From Mycobacteriales bacterium (GTDB taxonomy: Bacteria; Actinomycetota; Actinomycetes; Mycobacteriales; CADCTP01): DNA of 64,000 nt. The DNA lies in the NCBI GenBank assembly GCA_035995165.1, contig DASYKU010000122.1:1-64000 (forward strand), in the 5' to 3' direction. The position numbers and the translations under genes are program-made. The notes below the pieces were generated by a model. The model was not told where the DNA came from. It did not search any database and was given only the letters and a program-made list of their open reading frames with translations. Below, in pieces: positions 14,117-23,730 of the stretch (positions within the stretch are counted from its first letter, which is position 1; each line of letters begins with the position of its first letter).

Positions 14117-14894
14117 TCCCCCGCCGCCGCGGCGGGAGGTGGATCACCAGGCCCGCATCGAGCGCCGCGGCCGGCTCGATCCGTACCGCCGGCTCGACTG
14201 GCGGCGCCGGCTCGACCTGTACGACTGGCCCGGTCTCCGCTGCCGGTTCGGGTTGCGGTGCCGGGTCGGTCTTGGTCGGCGGTGGCTCAGCGGGGCTGCC
14301 GTCGGACGCGCGGAGCAGGGGGATTCCGGCGCCGACGTGCACCAGCAGGGGAGGACGGATCTCACCCTTCCGCTCGGCCACCTTCCGCTCCTCCAGAGCG
14401 AGGGTGGCCTTGACCGTGCACGATCCGCCGGTGAGCGCGACCAGCCGGCCGCCGCGTACGGTCGCGGCCAGCCCGCGGACGGTGAACTCGACCGTCAGCT
14501 CGACGTGCAGGGTGGCCAGCCGCATCTCCCGGACCAGCAGGTCGACCGAGGGCTGCTGGCGCACGGTCACCGTGTGCTCGGCCAGGCTGACGACCTCGGA
14601 CGTGCCGGGCTGGTCGCGAGTGCGGCGGGCGGCCGCGGTGAGCACCGTCCACTTGCGCCAGCCGGTCAGCAGCAGCTGACCCAGGTCGAGGTCGAGCAGG
14701 CCCTGGACGGAGCGGGCGAGCTCGGCCCGGACGGCACCGCCGCTGGAGCGGGCCAGTTCGCGGGCGGCGCCGCCGGCCGGGCCGAGGACGCCGTGCTCGT
14801 CGATCGCGCCGGCGAGGTCGGTGATCGCGTCGCGGTTGTCGCCGTACAGGAACGACCATGCGGTGAACCGCTCGTCAACGGCTGTCGCGGCCAT
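14097..14894 (-). CDS. cytosolic protein of unknown function linked to Ig-repeat protein
   Basis: A 265-residue protein without signal peptide or membrane segment. The first 190 residues look folded: an alanine/leucine-rich helical start (FTAWSFLYGDNRDAITDLAG) and later beta-rich stretches (TLHVELTVEFTVRG). The tail from about residue 195 is low in complexity, rich in Pro, Glu and Val (PAEPPPTKTDPAPQPEPA), ending in a basic PPRRRGISRSPR. The ATG at 14894 has a GGAG eight or so bases upstream and overlaps the 3' end of the Ig-repeat gene by 20 bases, so the two are co-translated. That protein has a cytoplasmic tail, so this one may bind its inner side; this is inference. I do not recognise the family. 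Confidence 0.7.
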   Translation of the reverse strand: MAATAVDERFTAWSFLYGDNRDAITDLAGAIDEHGVLGPAGGAARELARSSGGAVRAELARSVQGLLDLDLGQLLLTGWRKWTVLTAAARRTRDQPGTSEVVSLAEHTVTVRQQPSVDLLVREMRLATLHVELTVEFTVRGLAATVRGGRLVALTGGSCTVKATLALEERKVAERKGEIRPPLLVHVGAGIPLLRASDGSPAEPPPTKTDPAPQPEPAAETGPVVQVEPAPPVEPAVRIEPAAALDAGLVIHLPPRRRGISRSPR

Positions 14895-17703
14895 CGAAGG
14901 GCTCCTCTCCGAACGTCGGCGCCGGGTCCGGCTGCGGCCGGATCCGTACGGTCCAGTCGGCGGGGCCGGTCGAGCCGACCTCCGCCTCGGTCGCGGCCGG
15001 GCGGCCGGCGATCCGGATCGGCTCCCCGGCCGGCGTCCGGAGATCCGGGTGACCGGGCGGGCTCGGGATGCGGACCAGGGTCGTGCCGCCGGCCAGCAGC
15101 AGGCCCGCGCCGACGACGATGAGCAGCCACGGCAGCCGGCTCGCCGCCGGGTCGGCTGCGACCACCCGGAAAGGCACGGTCGCGACGAGCGGGGCGCCCT
15201 GCCGGCGGGCCAGGCTCACGGAGACGGTGTGGTCGCCCGGGATCCGGGCCACGCAGACCGCGTCGGTGCAGGTGCCGCTGTTCTCCGGTCGCAGCGTGAA
15301 CGTCGCCCGCACGGTCACGTCGCCGAGGTCGTTGCCGTTCGCGTCCAGGCCACGGACCTGGAACGGCTGCCGTGTGCCGGCGGCGACCGCGGGAGCGGCC
15401 GGGTCCACCATCAGCGCGGTCGGCTCCTCGGGCACGACGTGCAGGGTCGACCGGCCGTTGACGCCGGACAGCGTCGCGGCGACCTGGAGATCGGCCGGCC
15501 GGTCGGCGCTGCAGCGGTCGTCGCACCGGCCGGGAGCGCCGACCGAGAGCGCGACCTGGTCGGTCACGTCGCCGAGGTCGGCATTGTGAGCGTCGACGGC
15601 CCGGACCTCGTACGCCTGCTCGGCGCCGACCGAGATGGTCGCCTCACCGGGGTCGAGCACCAGCGCGGCGATCTCCGCCCGGGGTCGAACGTCCACATGC
15701 GACTGTGCGCGCCGGCCGGCATGGACCGCGACGACCTCGTGCGGGCCGCCGCGGACCGTCGAGCAGAGGGCCGCGGGGCAGGAACCGTCCGGGGCCATCG
15801 AGAACACGGTCCTCGCGGTGACGTCGCCGAGGTCCGTACCGGTGCGGTCGTAGGCGTGCACGGTGAAGCGCTGTCCCGCACCGACGCCGACCGTCACCGA
15901 GGACGGCGTCAGCTCGATACGTTCGACGGTCGGCTCGGCGGGCGGTCGTGGACCGGGTTGCAGACCCGGCACCGGCGGCGGGCTCGGCGGTAGCGGGAAC
16001 GGCGGCGGCGTCGGGGATGTGGTCGGGGGCGTGGTCGGAGGTGTGGTGGAAGGCGTGGTCGGAGGCGTGGTGAGAGACGGCGTCGGGGGTGTGGTGGGGG
16101 GTGTCGTGGGAGGCGTTGTCGAGTGTGCGGTGGGTGCAGGCGTCGGGGTCGCGCTCCGACGTGTGGTTGACGGGTGTGTGGTGGGTGGCGTCGTCGTGGA
16201 CGGGGTCGGGGTGGGCGGCGTCGGTGGGGAGGTCGTCCCGCCGGGATCGGACGGGTCCTCCGGCGGCGCCAGCACGTGCAGGGTGACCGAATCCGTGCTC
16301 TCGGTCCCGGCCAGCCGTCCGATGACCTGGTGATCCCCGGGCTCTTGCGGCGTGCAGCGCGCGTCCTCACACGGCCCGGGCGGCTCCATCGTGAACTCGG
16401 TCTTCGCGGTCATCTCGCCGAGCGGTCGGCGTTGCGGGCCGTAGCCCATGGCTGTGTACGGCTGGGTCGCCCCGAGCTGGATCGTCGCGTCGTCCGGGCT
16501 GATCTCGATCGACTCGATCGGATCCGGATAGACGTGCAGCTGTGCGGTCGCCGGCGTCACTGTCGTCCCGGGCAGGGAGGCCGTGACGGTGTAGTCGCCG
16601 GCCTCGCGCCGCGAGCAGACCCGCCGCGGGCACACCGTGCCGCCGTCGATCGAGACCTCCGCGTTGGTGAGATCGCCCAGCGGACGCTCATCCCGGTCGA
16701 AGCCCTGGACCTGGTACTCGACCTCGACGCCGATCCCCACGCTCACGAACTCCGGGCTGAGCGTGATCGAGGCCGGATCGCCGGCCACCACGGTGAGCGT
16801 CACCGGCTTGCTCACGATCAGGGGCGGGTCGCCGGGCAGCTCGGCCGTGATCGGGTACCTGCCGGGCACCATCGACAGGCAACCGTCGGCATTGCACAGG
16901 GCTTCGGGCCGGAGCTGGACCAACCCGGTCACGTCGCCGAGCTCGCCGCCGTCCGCATCCAGTCCGATGACCGTGTACGGCTGCCGCGTACCGGCGACCA
17001 CGCGGGCGTCGTCGGGCCCGAGCCGCAGGCCGGCGATCGGCGTGTCGACGACCTCCAGCGTGACCGGCTCGGCGGTCAGATCCCAGCGATCGACGGCTGC
17101 GGTGACCGTGTACTCGCCCGGGAGGTCAGCGGAGCAGTCGGCCTCGCGACACGACCCGCCGGGATGGATGCGCAGCTCGCCGGCAGCGGCGGTGACGTCG
17201 CCGAGGTCGACGGCCTTGGCGGACGCGTCCGGGACCGCGAGGACCCGGTAGGTCTGCACCGCCCGGATGGCGACGCCGGCCCGGGGCGGGTCGAGGACGA
17301 TTGCGGCCGGGCGCTGGTCGGTGACCTCGAGGCTCGCCTCACCGGTCAGCTGTTTCCCGGTCCCGCGCGGATCCGGGGCATGCGCGGCGACGTGGTAGGC
17401 GCCGGCCTTGTCGGCCGTGCAGGCAGCGACCACGCAGCCGCCCGGCGACTCGATGTCGAACGTGGTCGAGGGCGTGACCTCCGGTCCCGGTCGGTCCCCG
17501 ACGACCAGGTAAGCGCGGTAGTGGCGGACCGCACCGACGACGATCGTCGAGGTGTCCGGATCCAGGAACAGATGAGCATCAGCGTCCACACTGGACGGTG
17601 CCGCCGAGGCGCTGCCCGCACCGGCAACAACGGTCAGCAGCGTCAGCAGCACCGCGGCGAGGGCCGAGCCGTGGCGGCGAGCGCGCAGGGTGGTCTGAAG
17701 CAT
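14875..17703 (-). CDS. secreted, membrane-anchored protein with eight Ig-like repeats
   Basis: A 942-residue protein. Residues 1-35 are a signal peptide ending SASA. Eight repeats of about 85 residues follow, five before and three after a Pro/Thr-rich linker (about 480-580). Each starts with a strand like LxLxPxxATVxVGxxQxY, has a central LGDVT motif, then a pair of cysteines four or five residues apart and a final GxYxVxA strand; this matches bacterial Big-type Ig domains. One transmembrane helix (LPWLLIVVGAGLLLAG) near 857-877 is followed by a 65-residue cytoplasmic tail. There is no LPxTG sorting signal. A role in adhesion or envelope structure is likely but unproven. It is upstream of, and overlaps, the gene at 14097-14894. 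Confidence 0.85.
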   Translation of the reverse strand: MLQTTLRARRHGSALAAVLLTLLTVVAGAGSASAAPSSVDADAHLFLDPDTSTIVVGAVRHYRAYLVVGDRPGPEVTPSTTFDIESPGGCVVAACTADKAGAYHVAAHAPDPRGTGKQLTGEASLEVTDQRPAAIVLDPPRAGVAIRAVQTYRVLAVPDASAKAVDLGDVTAAAGELRIHPGGSCREADCSADLPGEYTVTAAVDRWDLTAEPVTLEVVDTPIAGLRLGPDDARVVAGTRQPYTVIGLDADGGELGDVTGLVQLRPEALCNADGCLSMVPGRYPITAELPGDPPLIVSKPVTLTVVAGDPASITLSPEFVSVGIGVEVEYQVQGFDRDERPLGDLTNAEVSIDGGTVCPRRVCSRREAGDYTVTASLPGTTVTPATAQLHVYPDPIESIEISPDDATIQLGATQPYTAMGYGPQRRPLGEMTAKTEFTMEPPGPCEDARCTPQEPGDHQVIGRLAGTESTDSVTLHVLAPPEDPSDPGGTTSPPTPPTPTPSTTTPPTTHPSTTRRSATPTPAPTAHSTTPPTTPPTTPPTPSLTTPPTTPSTTPPTTPPTTSPTPPPFPLPPSPPPVPGLQPGPRPPAEPTVERIELTPSSVTVGVGAGQRFTVHAYDRTGTDLGDVTARTVFSMAPDGSCPAALCSTVRGGPHEVVAVHAGRRAQSHVDVRPRAEIAALVLDPGEATISVGAEQAYEVRAVDAHNADLGDVTDQVALSVGAPGRCDDRCSADRPADLQVAATLSGVNGRSTLHVVPEEPTALMVDPAAPAVAAGTRQPFQVRGLDANGNDLGDVTVRATFTLRPENSGTCTDAVCVARIPGDHTVSVSLARRQGAPLVATVPFRVVAADPAASRLPWLLIVVGAGLLLAGGTTLVRIPSPPGHPDLRTPAGEPIRIAGRPAATEAEVGSTGPADWTVRIRPQPDPAPTFGEEPFDGRDSR

Positions 17704-17819
17704 GCCCGGAGCCTGCGGCCGATCCGGCTTCCGGACCGTGCGGCGGGTGACGCACGGAGTGTGCTCGCGCGGACACTTCCGTGCTGTTCGCGAGGTGCCT
17801 GGGCGGTCAGACTGGGGCG

Positions 17820-18488
17820 GTGGAGTTCCCCTTCCTCGCCGGTACGGACGAGGACCTGCGTCGCGGCGTGCTGCGCGCGACCCGGAGCCGGCGTTTCCGG
17901 CGCAACGAGGTGCTCTTCCACGCCGGCGACCCGGCCAACGGCCTGCACCTGCTGGTCTCCGGGCACATCAGCATCGCCACGACCACGCCGATGGGCGACA
18001 TCGCGATCCTGGCCGTGCTCGGGCCCGGGGCGACGTTCGGGGAGATGTCGCTGCTGACCGACGGGCTGGAACGCTCCGCCACGGCGACGGCGCTGGATCC
18101 GGTGGAGACACGGGTGCTGGTCCGGGACGACTTCGCCCGGCTGCGCCGGACGTACCCGCAGGTCGACCGGTTCCTCGTCGACCTGCTCGCCGGCTACGTC
18201 CGTCGGCAGGACTCGCGGCTGCTGGAGGCGCTCTACCTGCCGGTGGAGAAGCGGGTGCTGCGGCGGCTGCTGGAGCTGGCCGACATCTACGGGGGACGGG
18301 CGTCCGGGGCGCCCATCCCCCTCACCCAGGAGATCGTCGCGGAGATGTCCGGCACGACCCGGCCGACCGCGAACCATATCCTGCGGTCGGCCGAGGCAGC
18401 CGGGCTGATCGTCGTCGAGCGTGGCCGGCTCCGGGTCACCGACGCCGACGGGCTGGCCCGGCGGGCCGGGCTCCCGCTCAGGCCGTGA
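17820..18488 (+). CDS. Crp/Fnr-family transcriptional regulator
   Basis: A 222-residue regulator. The N-terminal cyclic-nucleotide-binding jelly roll (residues about 10-120) contains FGEMSLLTDGLERSATATA, which keeps the Glu and the Arg-Ser pair of the phosphate-binding cassette, so cAMP or a similar ligand is plausible. A dimerisation helix and a C-terminal winged helix follow (TQEIVAEMSGTTRPTANHIL as turn and recognition helix). GTG at 17820 is preferred over an in-frame GTG at 17781 because it starts just before the conserved domain; neither has a strong binding site. It converges on the subtilase gene with an 11-base overlap. The nearby cyclase-homology gene makes cyclic-nucleotide signalling within this locus possible. 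Confidence 0.85.
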   Translation: MEFPFLAGTDEDLRRGVLRATRSRRFRRNEVLFHAGDPANGLHLLVSGHISIATTTPMGDIAILAVLGPGATFGEMSLLTDGLERSATATALDPVETRVLVRDDFARLRRTYPQVDRFLVDLLAGYVRRQDSRLLEALYLPVEKRVLRRLLELADIYGGRASGAPIPLTQEIVAEMSGTTRPTANHILRSAEAAGLIVVERGRLRVTDADGLARRAGLPLRP

Positions 18489-19935
18489 CGATCGTCCCCA
18501 GCCAGGGCAGCCCGGCCAGCCCCGGCGCGGAGAGCAGCACCGGCACCGCCTCCTTCGGCGCGAGCCCCTCGTTCACCACCAGCTTGGCCAGTCGCGCCGC
18601 CACCAGTGGGGTCGCGAACGACGTACCGCTCCACCTCGCCCGCCCGGTGAACAGGTCCGGATCCTCGACCGGATTCCGCGGCTCCGTCCCGTTGGCCCAG
18701 TTGAAGAACGTGCTCTCCACGTCGACGCCGGCCGCGCAGGCCCGGACCCAGGGGCCGCGGTTGGTGAAGGGCGCCGGCCCGTCAGGCCCCAGGGCGGCCA
18801 CGCTGATCACCCGGGGTAGGGCCGCGGGATAGGGCGCGACCCAGGAACCGTCGTTGCCGGCCGAGCAGACGACGACCCCACCGCCGGTCAGCCGCGGGTG
18901 CTCGCTTCGTCGTGGTCCGTGCTGGAAGCGGCGGACTGCCTTGGCCAGGCAGCCCATGTGGTGCATCGCGTAGCCGCTGAAGGACAGGCTCAGGATCTCG
19001 GTCTCGCCGGCGAGCGCCGAGATCTGTTTCGCCACCTCCGATTCCGGGACGTCACCGAGATTGCTCATCGCGTCGATGACCCTCGCCTGGCAGGCCGGAT
19101 ACGTCTGCGCGACGACCCCGGCGATGAACAGGCCATGCCCGGCCACCCGGTCGAGGAAGCCGTCGACGTCCCGGTCCGGGTCGCCCGGCGCCGGAACACC
19201 GGCAACGCCCAGCCCGGGGAGTGGCGCCATCGTGTTGTCGAGGATCTGCGGCAACGGACCGGAGGGCAGCGGAACGTCCAGGATGGTCACAACCGCGTTG
19301 CCGCCGACGCGGTTCTTGAGCTGACCGTCCCAGTGGTAGTCGACCGGGCGGGCGCCGCTGCGGCCCCGGCCCGATCGCGCGTACTCACGCCCGTGCGGTC
19401 CGGCGAGCGACGGCGTGGGCAGCGGGTAGTCCAACGCCACCAACTCTGCGAAGAGGTTCCCGTGCAGGAGCCCCTCGAGATAGGGATTGCCCCACAGGGG
19501 ATTCCCGGCGAGCGGGTTACCCCAGAGCGGGTCTCCCGCGAGACCGTTGCCCCAGAGCGGGTCACCCGACAGGGAGTCCCCGTAGAGGCGGCTGGCCGGA
19601 AGCGCGTCGGCGAACAGGACATGGTCGGGCTGGGCGTCGAAGTCCGCGGCGATCAGCGCGTCGACCAACTCCGGTATGTCGGTGTCCGAGGTGACCTCGA
19701 TGACGCCGTAGCCGACGGCCTCCTCGACGGCGCTCGCCGTGTCGAGCCCGATCAGCTCGTCGTCGACGAAATTGTTCAGGCGCGTGAGGGTCTCGCTGCC
19801 GGGTACGGCGTCGCGGACGAGGATGCGGTGCGGGACGTAGGCGAAGTGGCCGTCGGTCGAGTAGGCGACACGGTCCTCCCACGTCTGGAACGGCCTCAGC
19901 ACGGACGGTTCGGGAGGCTCCACAGGATCCGACAT
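18478..19935 (-). CDS. intracellular subtilase (S8) with PLWGN decapeptide repeats
   Basis: A 485-residue serine peptidase. The catalytic triad is visible: Asp220 in VTILDVPLPSG, His267 in GHGLFIAGVV and Ser439 in SGTSFATPLVAA, with the oxyanion Asn361 in CSAGND. Residues about 35-110 resemble an I9-like pro-domain (TDIPELVDALIAADFD). Residues about 116-160 hold an odd run of decapeptide repeats built on PLWGN. There is no signal peptide, Tat motif or membrane anchor, so it should act inside the cell. ATG 19935 begins 23 bases after the stop of the cyclase/NB-ARC gene, so the two form an operon in which the sensor-like ATPase precedes the protease. The target is unknown. Confidence 0.85.
   Translation of the reverse strand: MSDPVEPPEPSVLRPFQTWEDRVAYSTDGHFAYVPHRILVRDAVPGSETLTRLNNFVDDELIGLDTASAVEEAVGYGVIEVTSDTDIPELVDALIAADFDAQPDHVLFADALPASRLYGDSLSGDPLWGNGLAGDPLWGNPLAGNPLWGNPYLEGLLHGNLFAELVALDYPLPTPSLAGPHGREYARSGRGRSGARPVDYHWDGQLKNRVGGNAVVTILDVPLPSGPLPQILDNTMAPLPGLGVAGVPAPGDPDRDVDGFLDRVAGHGLFIAGVVAQTYPACQARVIDAMSNLGDVPESEVAKQISALAGETEILSLSFSGYAMHHMGCLAKAVRRFQHGPRRSEHPRLTGGGVVVCSAGNDGSWVAPYPAALPRVISVAALGPDGPAPFTNRGPWVRACAAGVDVESTFFNWANGTEPRNPVEDPDLFTGRARWSGTSFATPLVAARLAKLVVNEGLAPKEAVPVLLSAPGLAGLPWLGTIVTA
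19486..19575. repeat. three tandem 30-bp repeats inside the subtilase gene
   Basis: Units start at 19486, 19516 and 19546 and share a core such as GCCCCAGAGCGGGT. They encode the decapeptides ending in PLWGN. Degenerate units flank them on both sides (roughly 19456-19485 and 19576-19595), giving about five decapeptides. The near-identity of the central units at DNA level points to recent duplication. Confidence 0.85.
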
Positions 19936-19958
19936 CGGCGTGGCTCCACTTCGGACGG

Positions 19959-22562
19959 TCAGTTCCGGGTGCCGGCCGGCACCCGGGTATCGCGGAGGAG
20001 CTGCTCCGCGGCGGCGGCGATCGCGGCCTCGATGGTCAGCGACCGCCCGGCCACCAGTTGGGTCGCGTAGCCGGCCGGCCCGAGCCGGGTCCGGGCCGCG
20101 ACCAGGACGTCCTCGGCGAGGCGGACGTCGGCGTCGTACGGCGTCATCCCGCTCTCCGACAACAGCTGCTCGGCCTTGGCGGTGAGCCGGATCGCGGTCT
20201 CCCAGTCACCGTCGGCATCGGCGGCCAGCCGGGCGGTGGCCAGCAGGCTGAACGCGACCATGCCGGTCTGGCCGAGCGCGGCGGCCAGCTCCAGACAGGC
20301 CCGCTGATGCCGGGCCGCGACCACCGGCGTGCCGAGCCGCAGCGCCATCTCGGCCAGGTTGCCGTGGGCCTGGACCAGCAGCAGCTCGTCGTCCAGCTCG
20401 GACGCGGCCCGCAGCTCGTCCTGGAACGCCCGTTCGGCCTGCTCGTCCGCGCCCTCGGTGGCGAGGGCGAGGCCGAGCAGGTTGCTCATCCGGGCCCGCC
20501 CCCGCGCAGTGAGCCGGCCCCGCAGAGCGGTCTCGGCGATCGCGACCGAGCGCCCGGCCTCGCCGCGCCGGATCGCGACCTCGCCGAGGACCTTCTCCAC
20601 CCCGACCTCGTCCCAGTCGGGCGCGCCGGTCTCGGCCCGCAACTCCGCGGCCTCCCGCGCTTCGGTCTCCGCCGCCGCGAGGTCCCCGGACCGGACGTAC
20701 AACAGGCCGAGCAGACTCAGCAGCCCGACCCGGGCCGAGGTCCGCGCCGGCAGCGCGGCGGCGAGCCGGCCCACCTCGCCGATCCCGGCGTGGAAGGACT
20801 GGACGGCGTCGTGGTGCCGGGCGATCGTCGCGGCGACCTGCTGGGCCCGTTCCTGTACGTCCTCCGTCCCGCCGGTAGCGGCCCAGACCACCGCGCGCAG
20901 GTTGTCCAGCTCGGCCGAGACCGCGTGCACCCAGGGCCGCCCGGTGTGCACGCCCCCGAAGCGGTCGACGTAGTGACGGGCGAGCCGGGCGGCACAGGCC
21001 AGGGTCTCGCCGTGCTCGGCCAGCAGCTCGCCCGCGTACGCCCGGACGGTCTCCATCGACCGGTACCGGGTTCCACCGGCGGCGGGATCCGCGAGCAGCA
21101 GCGACTTGTCCACCAGCGACCACACCAGCTCCGGCACGAGGTCCCGGTCGACGTCGTCGGCGGCGACCGCGGCCACCGCGGTGTCGAGGTCGAAGCCGGC
21201 CGCGAGCAGCGCCAGCCGTCGGAACGCGGCCGCCTCGGCCGCGCTCAGCATCCGTACGCTCCAGTCCAGCAGGGTTTCCAGCCCCCGGTGCCGGGGCGGC
21301 CGGGTGCGGTCGGAGGTCCGCAGCATCCGGGACTGCCGGTCCAGCCCCGCCAGGATCTCGTCCGGTTCGAGGACGGTCATCCGGGCGGCCGCGATCTCCA
21401 GTGCCAGCGGCAGCCCGTCCAGCCGGCGGCAGAGTGCGGCCACCACGGTGGCGACGGCGCCCTCGGGGCGGAAGCCGGGCCGGACCGCGCGGGCCCGCTC
21501 GACGAACAGGCGGGCGGCACCGGATCCGGCTCCCTGCGCGGTCGACAGCGGGTGCAGCCGTCGCAGCGACTCCTCCGGAAGATGCAGCGGCTCCCGGCTG
21601 GTGCAGAGGATTCGCACCTGAGGGCACTCGGCCAGCACGGTCACGACGAGGTCGGACACCGCGGCGACGTGCCGTTCGCAGCTGTCGAGCACCAACAGCA
21701 GCTGCCGGGTCCGCAACGCGGCCGCCACGTCTCGCGATCCGACCGTCGGGCCGCCGGGGATGCCGAGTGCGGCGGCGACGAGCCCGGGCAGCATGGCCGG
21801 CTCCTCCAGCGGGGCGCAGTCGGCCAGCCAGGCGCCGTCGCCCAGTCCGGCCGCGAGCCGGATGCTCACCTCGGTGGCCAGGCGCGTCTTTCCGACGCCA
21901 CCGGTGCCGAGCACGGTGACCAGCCGGTTCTCGGCCAGCGCGGTCTCGAGCTCGGCCACCTCGCGGTTCCGGTCGATCAGCGCGGTGGCCGGAACGGCGA
22001 GGTTGTGCCCGTCGGCCGGCAGCGCCCGGACGGCCGGGAACCGGCCCGGGTGCGGCAGCTCGAAGAGCCGGACCGGCCGGTCGAAGTTCCGGATCCGGAA
22101 GCTGCCCAGCGGGATCGGGCCGGCGGCGCCGAGATCGTCGACCGCCTGCTGGGACAGCACGACCTGCCCGCCGTGGGCCACGTCGGCGATCCGGGCGGCC
22201 TGGTGGACGGCGACCGCGACATACCGGGACCCGAGCGGGCTGGCCAGCCCGGCGTGCACGCCCATCCGGACCCGGACGTCCGCGCCTGCCGGCCAGGGCT
22301 CGGCGGCCAGCGCGCGCTGGGCAGCGGTGCAGGCCGCCACCGCGTCGGCCACCGACCAGAAAGCGATGAAGAACGAGTCGCCGAAGCAGTCGACCTCGTG
22401 GCCGCCGTACTCGAGCCAGGCCTCCCGGAGGAGGGCGCGATGCCGCTCCAGCACCCCGGCGTACGAGTCGCCGAGCGTTCGCAGCAGCCGGGTCGAGCCC
22501 TCGATGTCGGTGAAGACGAACACAACGGTCCCGGTCGGGAGCTTGTGATCGTCTCTGCGCAC
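19959..22562 (-). CDS. cyclase-homology/NB-ARC/TPR regulatory ATPase
   Basis: An 867-residue STAND-type protein. Residues about 10-165 are a class III nucleotidyl-cyclase homology domain: TDIEGST and FGDSFF keep both metal-binding aspartates, but the substrate-lysine position is Asp (EVDCF) and the transition-state Asn is His (VHQAARI), so activity is doubtful or altered. An NB-ARC ATPase follows with P-loop GTGGVGKTR (near 220) and Walker B LLLVLDSCER (near 290). The C-terminal half is helical with TPR-like repeats. No DNA-binding domain is present. The GTG at 22562 has no Shine-Dalgarno; a palindrome lies four bases upstream. It precedes the subtilase gene by 23 bases and probably controls or activates it; that is inference. 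Confidence 0.85.
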   Translation of the reverse strand: MRRDDHKLPTGTVVFVFTDIEGSTRLLRTLGDSYAGVLERHRALLREAWLEYGGHEVDCFGDSFFIAFWSVADAVAACTAAQRALAAEPWPAGADVRVRMGVHAGLASPLGSRYVAVAVHQAARIADVAHGGQVVLSQQAVDDLGAAGPIPLGSFRIRNFDRPVRLFELPHPGRFPAVRALPADGHNLAVPATALIDRNREVAELETALAENRLVTVLGTGGVGKTRLATEVSIRLAAGLGDGAWLADCAPLEEPAMLPGLVAAALGIPGGPTVGSRDVAAALRTRQLLLVLDSCERHVAAVSDLVVTVLAECPQVRILCTSREPLHLPEESLRRLHPLSTAQGAGSGAARLFVERARAVRPGFRPEGAVATVVAALCRRLDGLPLALEIAAARMTVLEPDEILAGLDRQSRMLRTSDRTRPPRHRGLETLLDWSVRMLSAAEAAAFRRLALLAAGFDLDTAVAAVAADDVDRDLVPELVWSLVDKSLLLADPAAGGTRYRSMETVRAYAGELLAEHGETLACAARLARHYVDRFGGVHTGRPWVHAVSAELDNLRAVVWAATGGTEDVQERAQQVAATIARHHDAVQSFHAGIGEVGRLAAALPARTSARVGLLSLLGLLYVRSGDLAAAETEAREAAELRAETGAPDWDEVGVEKVLGEVAIRRGEAGRSVAIAETALRGRLTARGRARMSNLLGLALATEGADEQAERAFQDELRAASELDDELLLVQAHGNLAEMALRLGTPVVAARHQRACLELAAALGQTGMVAFSLLATARLAADADGDWETAIRLTAKAEQLLSESGMTPYDADVRLAEDVLVAARTRLGPAGYATQLVAGRSLTIEAAIAAAAEQLLRDTRVPAGTRN

Positions 22563-22565
22563 AGA

Positions 22566-22577
22566 GTCAATGTTGAC
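22566..22577. promoter_or_regulatory. inverted repeat just upstream of the cyclase/NB-ARC gene
   Basis: GTCAA-TG-TTGAC is a 5-bp inverted repeat ending four bases before the GTG start at 22562 on the minus strand, in one of the few A/T-rich spots here. No ribosome binding site exists at that start, so the message may be leaderless and this element may overlap the promoter or be an operator. The binding protein is unknown; it does not match a typical Crp site (TGTGA-N6-TCACA). Confidence 0.35.
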
Positions 22578-22722
22578 AGCACTGAGACACCCGGTCGAGT
22601 GAATACCGACTCCGGGCCAGATCTCCTCGTCCGGATCCCGGCCGTCGCCGGGCGCCGAGGTGAGGGCGGTGGACGGGACGGCGGTCCGGTCACCGTTGCC
22701 GGGGCGGGGTCGAAGGGCGGGG

Positions 22723-22990
22723 ATGAGCGGAGTCGTGCTGCGGCGGCGGTCGGAGGAGTTGGCCGCGGTCGTCTCGGTGCTGCGTCAGGTCGTCCGGACC
22801 GGTCAGGGTGCGATCGTGCTGATCACCGCGAAGGCCGCCCTGTTTCGCGCGGCGGCCGAGCCGGCGTCGCGGACCGGGTGGCGGGTCGGGGTCGGGGTCG
22901 GCAAGGCCGACGAGGCCGACCAGATCGTTCCTCGGGGTGCTGGCCGAGGCACCGAGGATCTTCCAGTGTCGCTTGTGGACGGTGTCGGCG
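22723..22990 (+). pseudogene. decayed N-terminus of an AAA/LuxR-type regulator
   Basis: From ATG 22723 the frame reads LRRRSEELAAVVSVLRQV, GAIVLITAKAALFRAAAE and KADEADQIVP, which follow the order of the N-terminal ATPase of LuxR-type AAA regulators. The Walker A motif is gone: where GxxGxGK is expected the sequence is ITAKAALF, as if about five codons were lost. After QIVP the frame shifts; a neighbouring frame continues with GVLAEAPRIF. Beyond about 22990 no resemblance remains, and the stretch to 23178 holds nothing else. The rest of the gene, including the HTH, is missing. Confidence 0.55.
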
Positions 22991-23178
22991 GCTGCGGACG
23001 CTGTCACCGGAGGCGGCCGGGCTGCTGCGGCCGGCCGCGGTGGGGCCGGGAGCCTCCGGTCGCGGATGCGGCAGCCCCGCCGCCAGGCGGCCGTCCAGGA
23101 CGTGTGCGCCCCGGGCCCGGGGCGCGCCGGCAGCCGGCCTCACCTGTTCTGTCGGAGGGTGTCGCTAGGGTCCGCGCC

Positions 23179-23730
23179 ATGATCGGCAGCGACCTGCGGC
23201 ACTACCTGCAGCAGTCCCGAGACTCGCTGCTGCGCGCCCTCGACGGCCTGAGCGAGTACGACGCCCGGAGGCCGCTCACGCCGACCGGCACCAACCTGCT
23301 CGGCCTGGTCAAGCACCTGGCCGGGATCGAGGCCGGCTACCTCGGTGCGTGCGCCGGCCGGCCGATGCCGGTCTCCCTGCCCTGGTACGACGACGGTTCG
23401 GTCTGGGCGGGCGGCGACATGTGGGCCGCGGCCGGGCAGTCCCGGGACGGGATCGTGGCGCTCTACCGGGAGGTCTGGGCGTACGCGGACCGGGCGATCG
23501 AGGAACTGCCGCTGGACCACCCGGCGGTCGTGGAGTGGTGGGCGCCGGAGAGGCGGCACACGACGTTCGGGCACCTGCTCTGCCGGGTGGTGGCGGAGAC
23601 CGCGCAGCACGCCGGGCACGCGGACATCCTGCGGGAGACGCTCGACGGGCGGGGCGGGAACGAGCGGGACGAGGCCGGGTGGGCCGCGTTCGTGGCGGAG
23701 ATCCAGGCCGCGGCGGACGCCTACCGCTGA
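23179..23730 (+). CDS. DinB-superfamily protein (DUF664-like)
   Basis: A 183-residue four-helix-bundle protein. Helix starts such as DLRHYLQQSRDSLLRALDGL and the histidines in LVKHLAGIEAGYLG and QHAGHADILRETL fit the metal-binding triad of the DinB/YfiT fold. Members include mycothiol- or bacillithiol-dependent transferases, and many are uncharacterised. ATG 23179 follows a relic region with no good binding site; GTG 23158 is an alternative start. The 3' end overlaps the convergent phosphotransferase gene by 10 bases. Confidence 0.8.
   Translation: MIGSDLRHYLQQSRDSLLRALDGLSEYDARRPLTPTGTNLLGLVKHLAGIEAGYLGACAGRPMPVSLPWYDDGSVWAGGDMWAAAGQSRDGIVALYREVWAYADRAIEELPLDHPAVVEWWAPERRHTTFGHLLCRVVAETAQHAGHADILRETLDGRGGNERDEAGWAAFVAEIQAAADAYR

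Follow-up and report, generated by a model that had tools for sequence, protein, structure and literature searches.

The Craspase (CASP) system of type III-E CRISPR brings together Csx29, a TPR-CHAT protease, the proteins Csx30 and Csx31, and the ECF-type sigma factor CASP-sigma. In the published account, Csx29 cleaves Csx30, which acts as an inhibitor of the sigma factor (PMC10028731). STAND-based conflict systems of multicellular prokaryotes were described by Kaur et al. in 2020; they are modular in their sensors and include NTPase switches, peptidases and cNMP-cyclase domains that are often inactive (PMC7159879). In AVAST and other nuclease-protease pairs, a STAND sensor is coupled to the proteolytic unlocking of a proenzyme, in likeness to the arrangement proposed below; however, a nuclease is activated there, by a trypsin-like protease that forms one protein with the sensor, whereas the present locus encodes a separate subtilase with its own propeptide-like domain (PMC12799240). 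Intracellular subtilisins and pro-subtilisins (2wv7, 7y6m; Tk-subtilisin 2e1p; 3afg) resemble this subtilase in their catalytic domain, their cytoplasmic location and, as predicted for it, an activity controlled by a propeptide. To our knowledge, the intracellular subtilisins of Bacillus have neither a partner ATPase nor a tandem-repeat linker.

The locus described here lies in a window of 64,000 nucleotides (the whole stretch of DNA analysed) from a Mycobacteriales bacterium, and holds the following features:

17781-18488, forward strand: Crp/Fnr-family regulator gene, with cNMP_binding and HTH_Crp_2 domains; overlaps the stop of the subtilase gene by 11 bp, tail to tail
18478-19935, reverse strand: S8 subtilase gene, 485 aa, ATG start; N-terminal propeptide-like domain, repeat linker and catalytic domain
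18481-19296, reverse strand: S8 catalytic domain, residues 214-485; Asp220 (19276-19278), His267 (19135-19137), Ser439 (18619-18621)
19450-19584, reverse strand: predicted disordered linker with degenerate 5-residue repeats of the [W/A]G[N/D]PL type, residues 118-162
19600-19890, reverse strand: N-terminal beta-alpha-beta-beta-alpha-beta domain, residues 16-112; candidate intramolecular propeptide/inhibitor
19936-19958, no strand: 23-bp spacer between the STAND and subtilase genes
19959-22562, reverse strand: gene for a protein with cyclase-homology, NB-ARC-type STAND ATPase and TPR regions, 867 aa, GTG start
19962-20807, reverse strand: TPR region, about residues 586-867; profile homology to the N-terminal TPR of TPR-CHAT partners
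21198-21980, reverse strand: STAND NTPase core, about residues 195-455; P-loop GTGGVGKT, Walker B LLLVLDSCE and GLPLALE motif
22047-22541, reverse strand: class III cyclase-homology domain, about residues 8-172; Asp19, Asp62 and Arg124 kept, D58, R113 and H120 altered

The coordinates confirm that the STAND and subtilase genes are co-directional and 23 bp apart, as the first-pass annotation of this DNA had reported, and both show the G+C content by codon position of real high-G+C genes. Ahead of the STAND start codon, some 600 bp (22563-23178) look like part of a protein-coding frame that continues into a DinB-like gene (23179-23730), and are possibly a decayed gene. Elsewhere in the window, positions 14875-17703 of the reverse strand encode a 942-aa protein with a signal-like N-terminal segment, repeated Big/Ig-like domains with paired Cys residues, a Thr/Pro-rich spacer and a membrane-like segment at the C-terminus, which by these features is likely a surface protein.

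The pair has been recovered in 10 loci of Actinomycetota and Chloroflexota, although the phylum labels of MAG contigs are those deposited and any single locus could be a mis-binned contig. The STAND gene always precedes the subtilase gene on the same strand. These loci are the window, Kineococcus indalonis (L019), a Mycobacteriales MAG (L022, the same locus as L011), Acidimicrobiia and Ilumatobacteraceae MAGs (L021, L023, L025, L028 and L031), a Chloroflexi MAG (L048) and L172. Intergenic gaps in the nine other pairs measure -4, -4, 14, 24, 36, 41, 42, 50 and 56 bp; the 4-bp start/stop overlap (ATGA) found at two loci suggests translational coupling. The STAND proteins of these loci are 41-53% identical to that of the window.

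Scanning genome contigs with the window subtilase as a single sequence gave no match, and an alignment-based profile search was needed. As most pair loci were reached via the subtilase, with a possible bias towards adjacency, a search from the STAND side was run as a counter-check. With the STAND alignment, 396 genomes of the phylum and 198 Acidimicrobiia genomes yielded three in-clade proteins (G000; G1257, which is L021; and G1177, which is L172), and a subtilase gene lies downstream in 3/3. The possibility that homologs are rarely adjacent, raised beforehand as a refuting outcome, was thus not borne out from this side. The four next-best STAND matches are without a subtilase and fall outside the paired clade, and the paired STANDs are monophyletic with support of 100/100 against these next-best matches and ten paralogues from the same genome. 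The pair is rare (1 of the 396 phylum genomes in the STAND-side search), which limits the statistics. No third gene conserved at the pair loci was found, nor was plasmid or phage carriage of the pair detected at the cut-offs used.

The 867-residue protein can be assigned to the STAND NTPases by the invariant G219, K225 and D293, the GLPLA motif and a TPR region recognized by profile. Its score against the Pfam model Guanylate_cyc lies exactly at the cut-off (21.9 bits), and NB-ARC and TPR score too low in this protein to pass their cut-offs; TPR_12 passes in its relative from L048. Among eight paired STANDs, the P-loop, the Walker-B Asp and both metal-binding Asp residues (D19 and D62) are invariant, while positions 58, 113 and 120 of the cyclase-homology domain, which correspond to substrate residues, vary; the substrate Lys is lost in 7/8 and the Asp/Asn positions are variable. 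The initial description of an intact P-loop and of a cyclase domain with kept metal-binding aspartates and altered substrate residues was right on both counts. An active class III nucleotide cyclase is not supported, the Lys, Asp and Asn positions being D58, R113 and H120 in the window. Because the metal-binding Asp residues and one Arg are kept and the substrate-selecting residues are not, nucleotide binding appears likelier than nucleotide synthesis. The Chloroflexi locus has a second cyclase-homology stretch immediately ahead of its STAND gene (L048:3723-4112, 37% identity).

Assignment of this protein to AVAST/Avs was discarded, with no PADLOC match and 10.8 bits against a cut-off of 1500 for NCBIfam Avs4, and so was its assignment as the TPR protein of the FxSxx-COOH system (NF040586; 29.4 bits against 300). 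Neither the STAND protein nor the subtilase of the window matches a PADLOC model. The genome holds ten other NB-ARC-type paralogues, none with an adjoining subtilase gene. Searches with Pfam and NCBIfam revealed no DNA-binding domain in the STAND protein; this, together with the lack of a third conserved gene, makes the subtilase the natural output of the STAND.

The subtilase matches Peptidase_S8 of Pfam (E 5.7e-13). In an alignment of 24 members, D220, H267, S439 and the oxyanion residue N361 are present in 24/24, and S8 membership follows from the fold and the triad, the structure matches being subtilisins. The window copy is the sole exception among the 24 to the D-[T/S]-G and H-G-T signatures: its Asp motif is D-V-P, versus D-[T/S]-G in all 23 relatives, and its His motif is GHGL, versus GH[G/S]T in all 23. 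Its S8 membership stands, since these signatures are usual in the family and not strictly required. The complete triad of the first-pass annotation is thus present in Asp220, His267 and Ser439, but the residues flanking Asp and His are changed in this copy only (1/24). Changes next to two of the triad residues, together with frayed repeats, leave the activity of this copy uncertain; its terminal branch in the subtilase tree is long (0.96). The N-terminus is not hydrophobic, in keeping with the absence of an export signal noted earlier. Sequence matches to intracellular subtilisins cover the catalytic domain only, and the same holds for nearly all of the distant subtilases that 27 further genomes of the class yielded at E<1e-60, which were left out of the membership.

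Ahead of the catalytic domain, the 24 aligned subtilases carry an N-terminal domain that ends in a conserved A-x-x-N/D-H-V-L-F stretch. AlphaFold models it confidently (pLDDT 82) as beta-alpha-beta-beta-alpha-beta, an order fitting the ferredoxin-like I9 type, and on this model it is likely a propeptide. Structure matches to the whole model are subtilisins, including the pro-subtilisin chains 3afg and 8pol over about 500 columns. With the isolated domain, chains of the PCSK9 prodomain rank near the top by TM-score (TM 0.52), at E-values of just 0.1-0.3, and no match is significant; a sequence profile search with this domain returned no propeptide match. The initial view of a triad protease without an export signal holds, but it had missed both this domain and the repeat linker that follows it.

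In every aligned member, the linker repeats in tandem a unit of 5 or 6 residues that is built around [N/S/H/T]-Pro. Depending on the protein, the unit is NPLYG (13 copies), SPVYG (12), TPYPGG (10), NPAYQG (8), NPFYA (7), NPVWA (7), NPAEI (7) or NPAIHV (5), along with HPTLWA, NPFSS, SPFFA and others. Units are the same within one protein, with silently different codons (the 13 identical units of L048 are encoded by 12 DNA versions), while from locus to locus both the unit and its number of copies change freely. Summed over 25 proteins, adjacent units show 224 silent versus 26 amino-acid-changing differences, with pS 0.36 and a pN of 0.014 that is biased downward by the choice of stretches for their repetitiveness. 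The silent divergence between units shows that they were not copied recently, and at the sequence level the repeats are under strong purifying selection. AlphaFold places the linker at very low confidence, as expected for disorder. The window linker is a frayed version, YGDSLSGDPLWGNGLAGDPLWGNPLAGNPLWGNPYL, whose [N/D]PLWGN motif has no other occurrence in the genome, which rules out another genomic carrier such as a substrate. The linker is a candidate docking or processing element. In the open-access accounts of related systems that were covered, no subtilase with such a linker is described.

Relatives of the subtilase with the same N-terminal domain and repeat linker adjoin a gene for a TPR-CHAT (caspase-like) protein, usually together with an ECF sigma factor. 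This alternative partner had been missed by the first-pass annotation, which had correctly placed the subtilase with a STAND gene. A CHAT-type locus without evident CRISPR genes comprises the repeat-linker subtilase, a divergent TPR-CHAT protease, an ECF sigma factor and a small protein (L014-L017, L020, L024, L027, L029, L030, L032-L040 and L100); the short contigs L035 and L036 among them hold the sigma factor and the small protein only. That protein of about 150 aa (L016:6970-7428, forward strand, and homologues) has no Pfam or NCBIfam match and is a candidate regulator of the sigma factor it adjoins. His757 and Cys797 of the CHAT proteins are invariant.

The nine subtilases paired with a STAND group in their tree as one clade (support 82/90) nested within the CHAT-paired family, and the sister of this clade consists of three CHAT-paired members that show the 5-residue period as well. 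By this phylogeny there was one partner change, in which the STAND-paired proteases arose once from inside the CHAT-paired ones. No TPR-CHAT protein was found at STAND-paired loci, and one is present at the sister CHAT-paired loci; neither were the ECF sigma factor and the small protein found at STAND-paired loci. With hhalign, the C-terminus of the STAND protein aligns with the N-terminal TPR of the CHAT protein at 95.5% probability, though similarity between TPRs is generic.

The likeness to Craspase lies in this alternative partner, likewise a TPR-CHAT protein whose gene accompanies that of an ECF sigma factor, and, as proposed here, in a signal-gated protease acting on its neighbour (PMC10028731). 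However, the gene lists, drawn up without a dedicated CRISPR search, contain no CRISPR effector, and the neighbour is a subtilase with repeats; in the window, moreover, a cyclase-STAND-TPR protein stands in place of the CHAT protein and the sigma factor. The swap of CHAT for cyclase-STAND has a parallel in System 4 of Kaur et al., in which a caspase is displaced by a cyclase; a text search of that paper, however, returned a single mention of subtilisin, in a NucA-centred system, and none of CHAT or subtilase, so that neither the present pair nor its linker is among the systems it describes (PMC7159879). No described subtilase/STAND or subtilase/CHAT/sigma system was found in the open-access literature, subscription journals being outside the scope.

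As read from sequence and phylogeny, the two genes are paired and have descended together, their domain content is that given above, the protease family has swapped partners and its repeats are under selection. We consider it rather probable that they form a two-gene module in which a STAND sensor gates a cytoplasmic subtilase zymogen. The subtilase would be made inactive, held by its propeptide-like N-terminal domain. The STAND protein may use its cyclase-homology region, its TPR region or both to sense a cue, then switch with ATP and assemble, and its TPR surface would gather subtilase molecules, possibly by gripping the repeat linker. Once gathered, the subtilases would cleave themselves or one another into the mature form and then attack substrates in the cytoplasm. 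In loci of the CHAT type, a caspase-like protease would replace the STAND switch and the output would include transcription via the sigma factor, with the TPR as the presumed contact surface common to both partner types. Candidate outcomes are a stress response or infection-triggered cell suicide. The sensor-activated protease suggested by the first-pass annotation is retained here, as a conserved co-directional unit whose most likely role is control of a cytoplasmic protease by a STAND sensor, but without the nucleotide signal shared with Crp.

That signal was proposed from the convergent Crp/Fnr gene, which does carry an intact cyclic-nucleotide domain, and the kept metal-binding Asp and Arg124 of the cyclase domain also speak for a circuit in which the product of this domain controls the adjacent Crp. 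However, a Crp homologue was searched for at the other pair loci and not found, the Crp gene lies on the opposite strand, and the substrate residues are poorly kept. The absence of Crp from the other loci led us to drop the link; with no third conserved gene, Crp was rejected as a component, and such a circuit is very improbable. That a stray protease came to lie beside a common STAND paralogue by mere chance, for which the ten further paralogues in the genome might speak, has next to no probability: it is refuted by the conserved neighbourhood, with ten same-order loci in two phyla, tight spacing, joint clades and no subtilase beside those paralogues. It is possible, if doubtful, that the window copy is drifting and partly inactive, its STAND functional and its protease activity lost or changed, as D-V-P and GHGL, the frayed repeats and the long end branch would indicate; against this, the triad and oxyanion residues are kept, the frame is intact, codon bias is normal and STAND spacing is conserved.

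Other readings concern the linker. It may be simply a flexible or spring-like spacer built of tandem Asn-Pro turns, its repetition due to slippage and biophysical constraint, in which case the pair would still be a sensor and a protease. The modelled disorder and the free variation of units between loci fit this idea, to which we give a minor but appreciable probability; however, amino-acid drift between units should then be tolerated, and the units stay identical despite heavy silent divergence, as in L048. Somewhat more tentatively, the NP-repeat linker may be a locus-specific barcode, with many identical copies of a private 5-6-residue motif read by the TPR superhelix of the cognate STAND or CHAT partner. 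If true, this would provide multivalent, crosstalk-free recruitment and activation, with a motif uniform in each protein and changed wholesale between loci. Cleavage of the linker by the subtilase or a partner protease into many copies of a short signal or product peptide, as in repeat-containing precursors, is quite improbable: tandem identical 5-6-mers do lie beside a protease domain in the same chain and their substitutions are mostly silent, but no exporter or receptor gene is conserved beside the pair, there is no signal peptide and the units share no conserved cut-site residue.

Under the favoured reading of a STAND sensor gating a subtilase zymogen, the subtilase joins the short list of effectors apparently run by bacterial STAND (NLR-like) sensors. 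This one protease family also shows a natural swap of partners, a TPR-CHAT protein of caspase-like type against a STAND protein with cyclase homology. The swap allows a test of whether one executioner can be switched interchangeably by NLR-like and by caspase-like modules, and likewise opens to test the selection behind identical, locus-private short repeats inside a zymogen.
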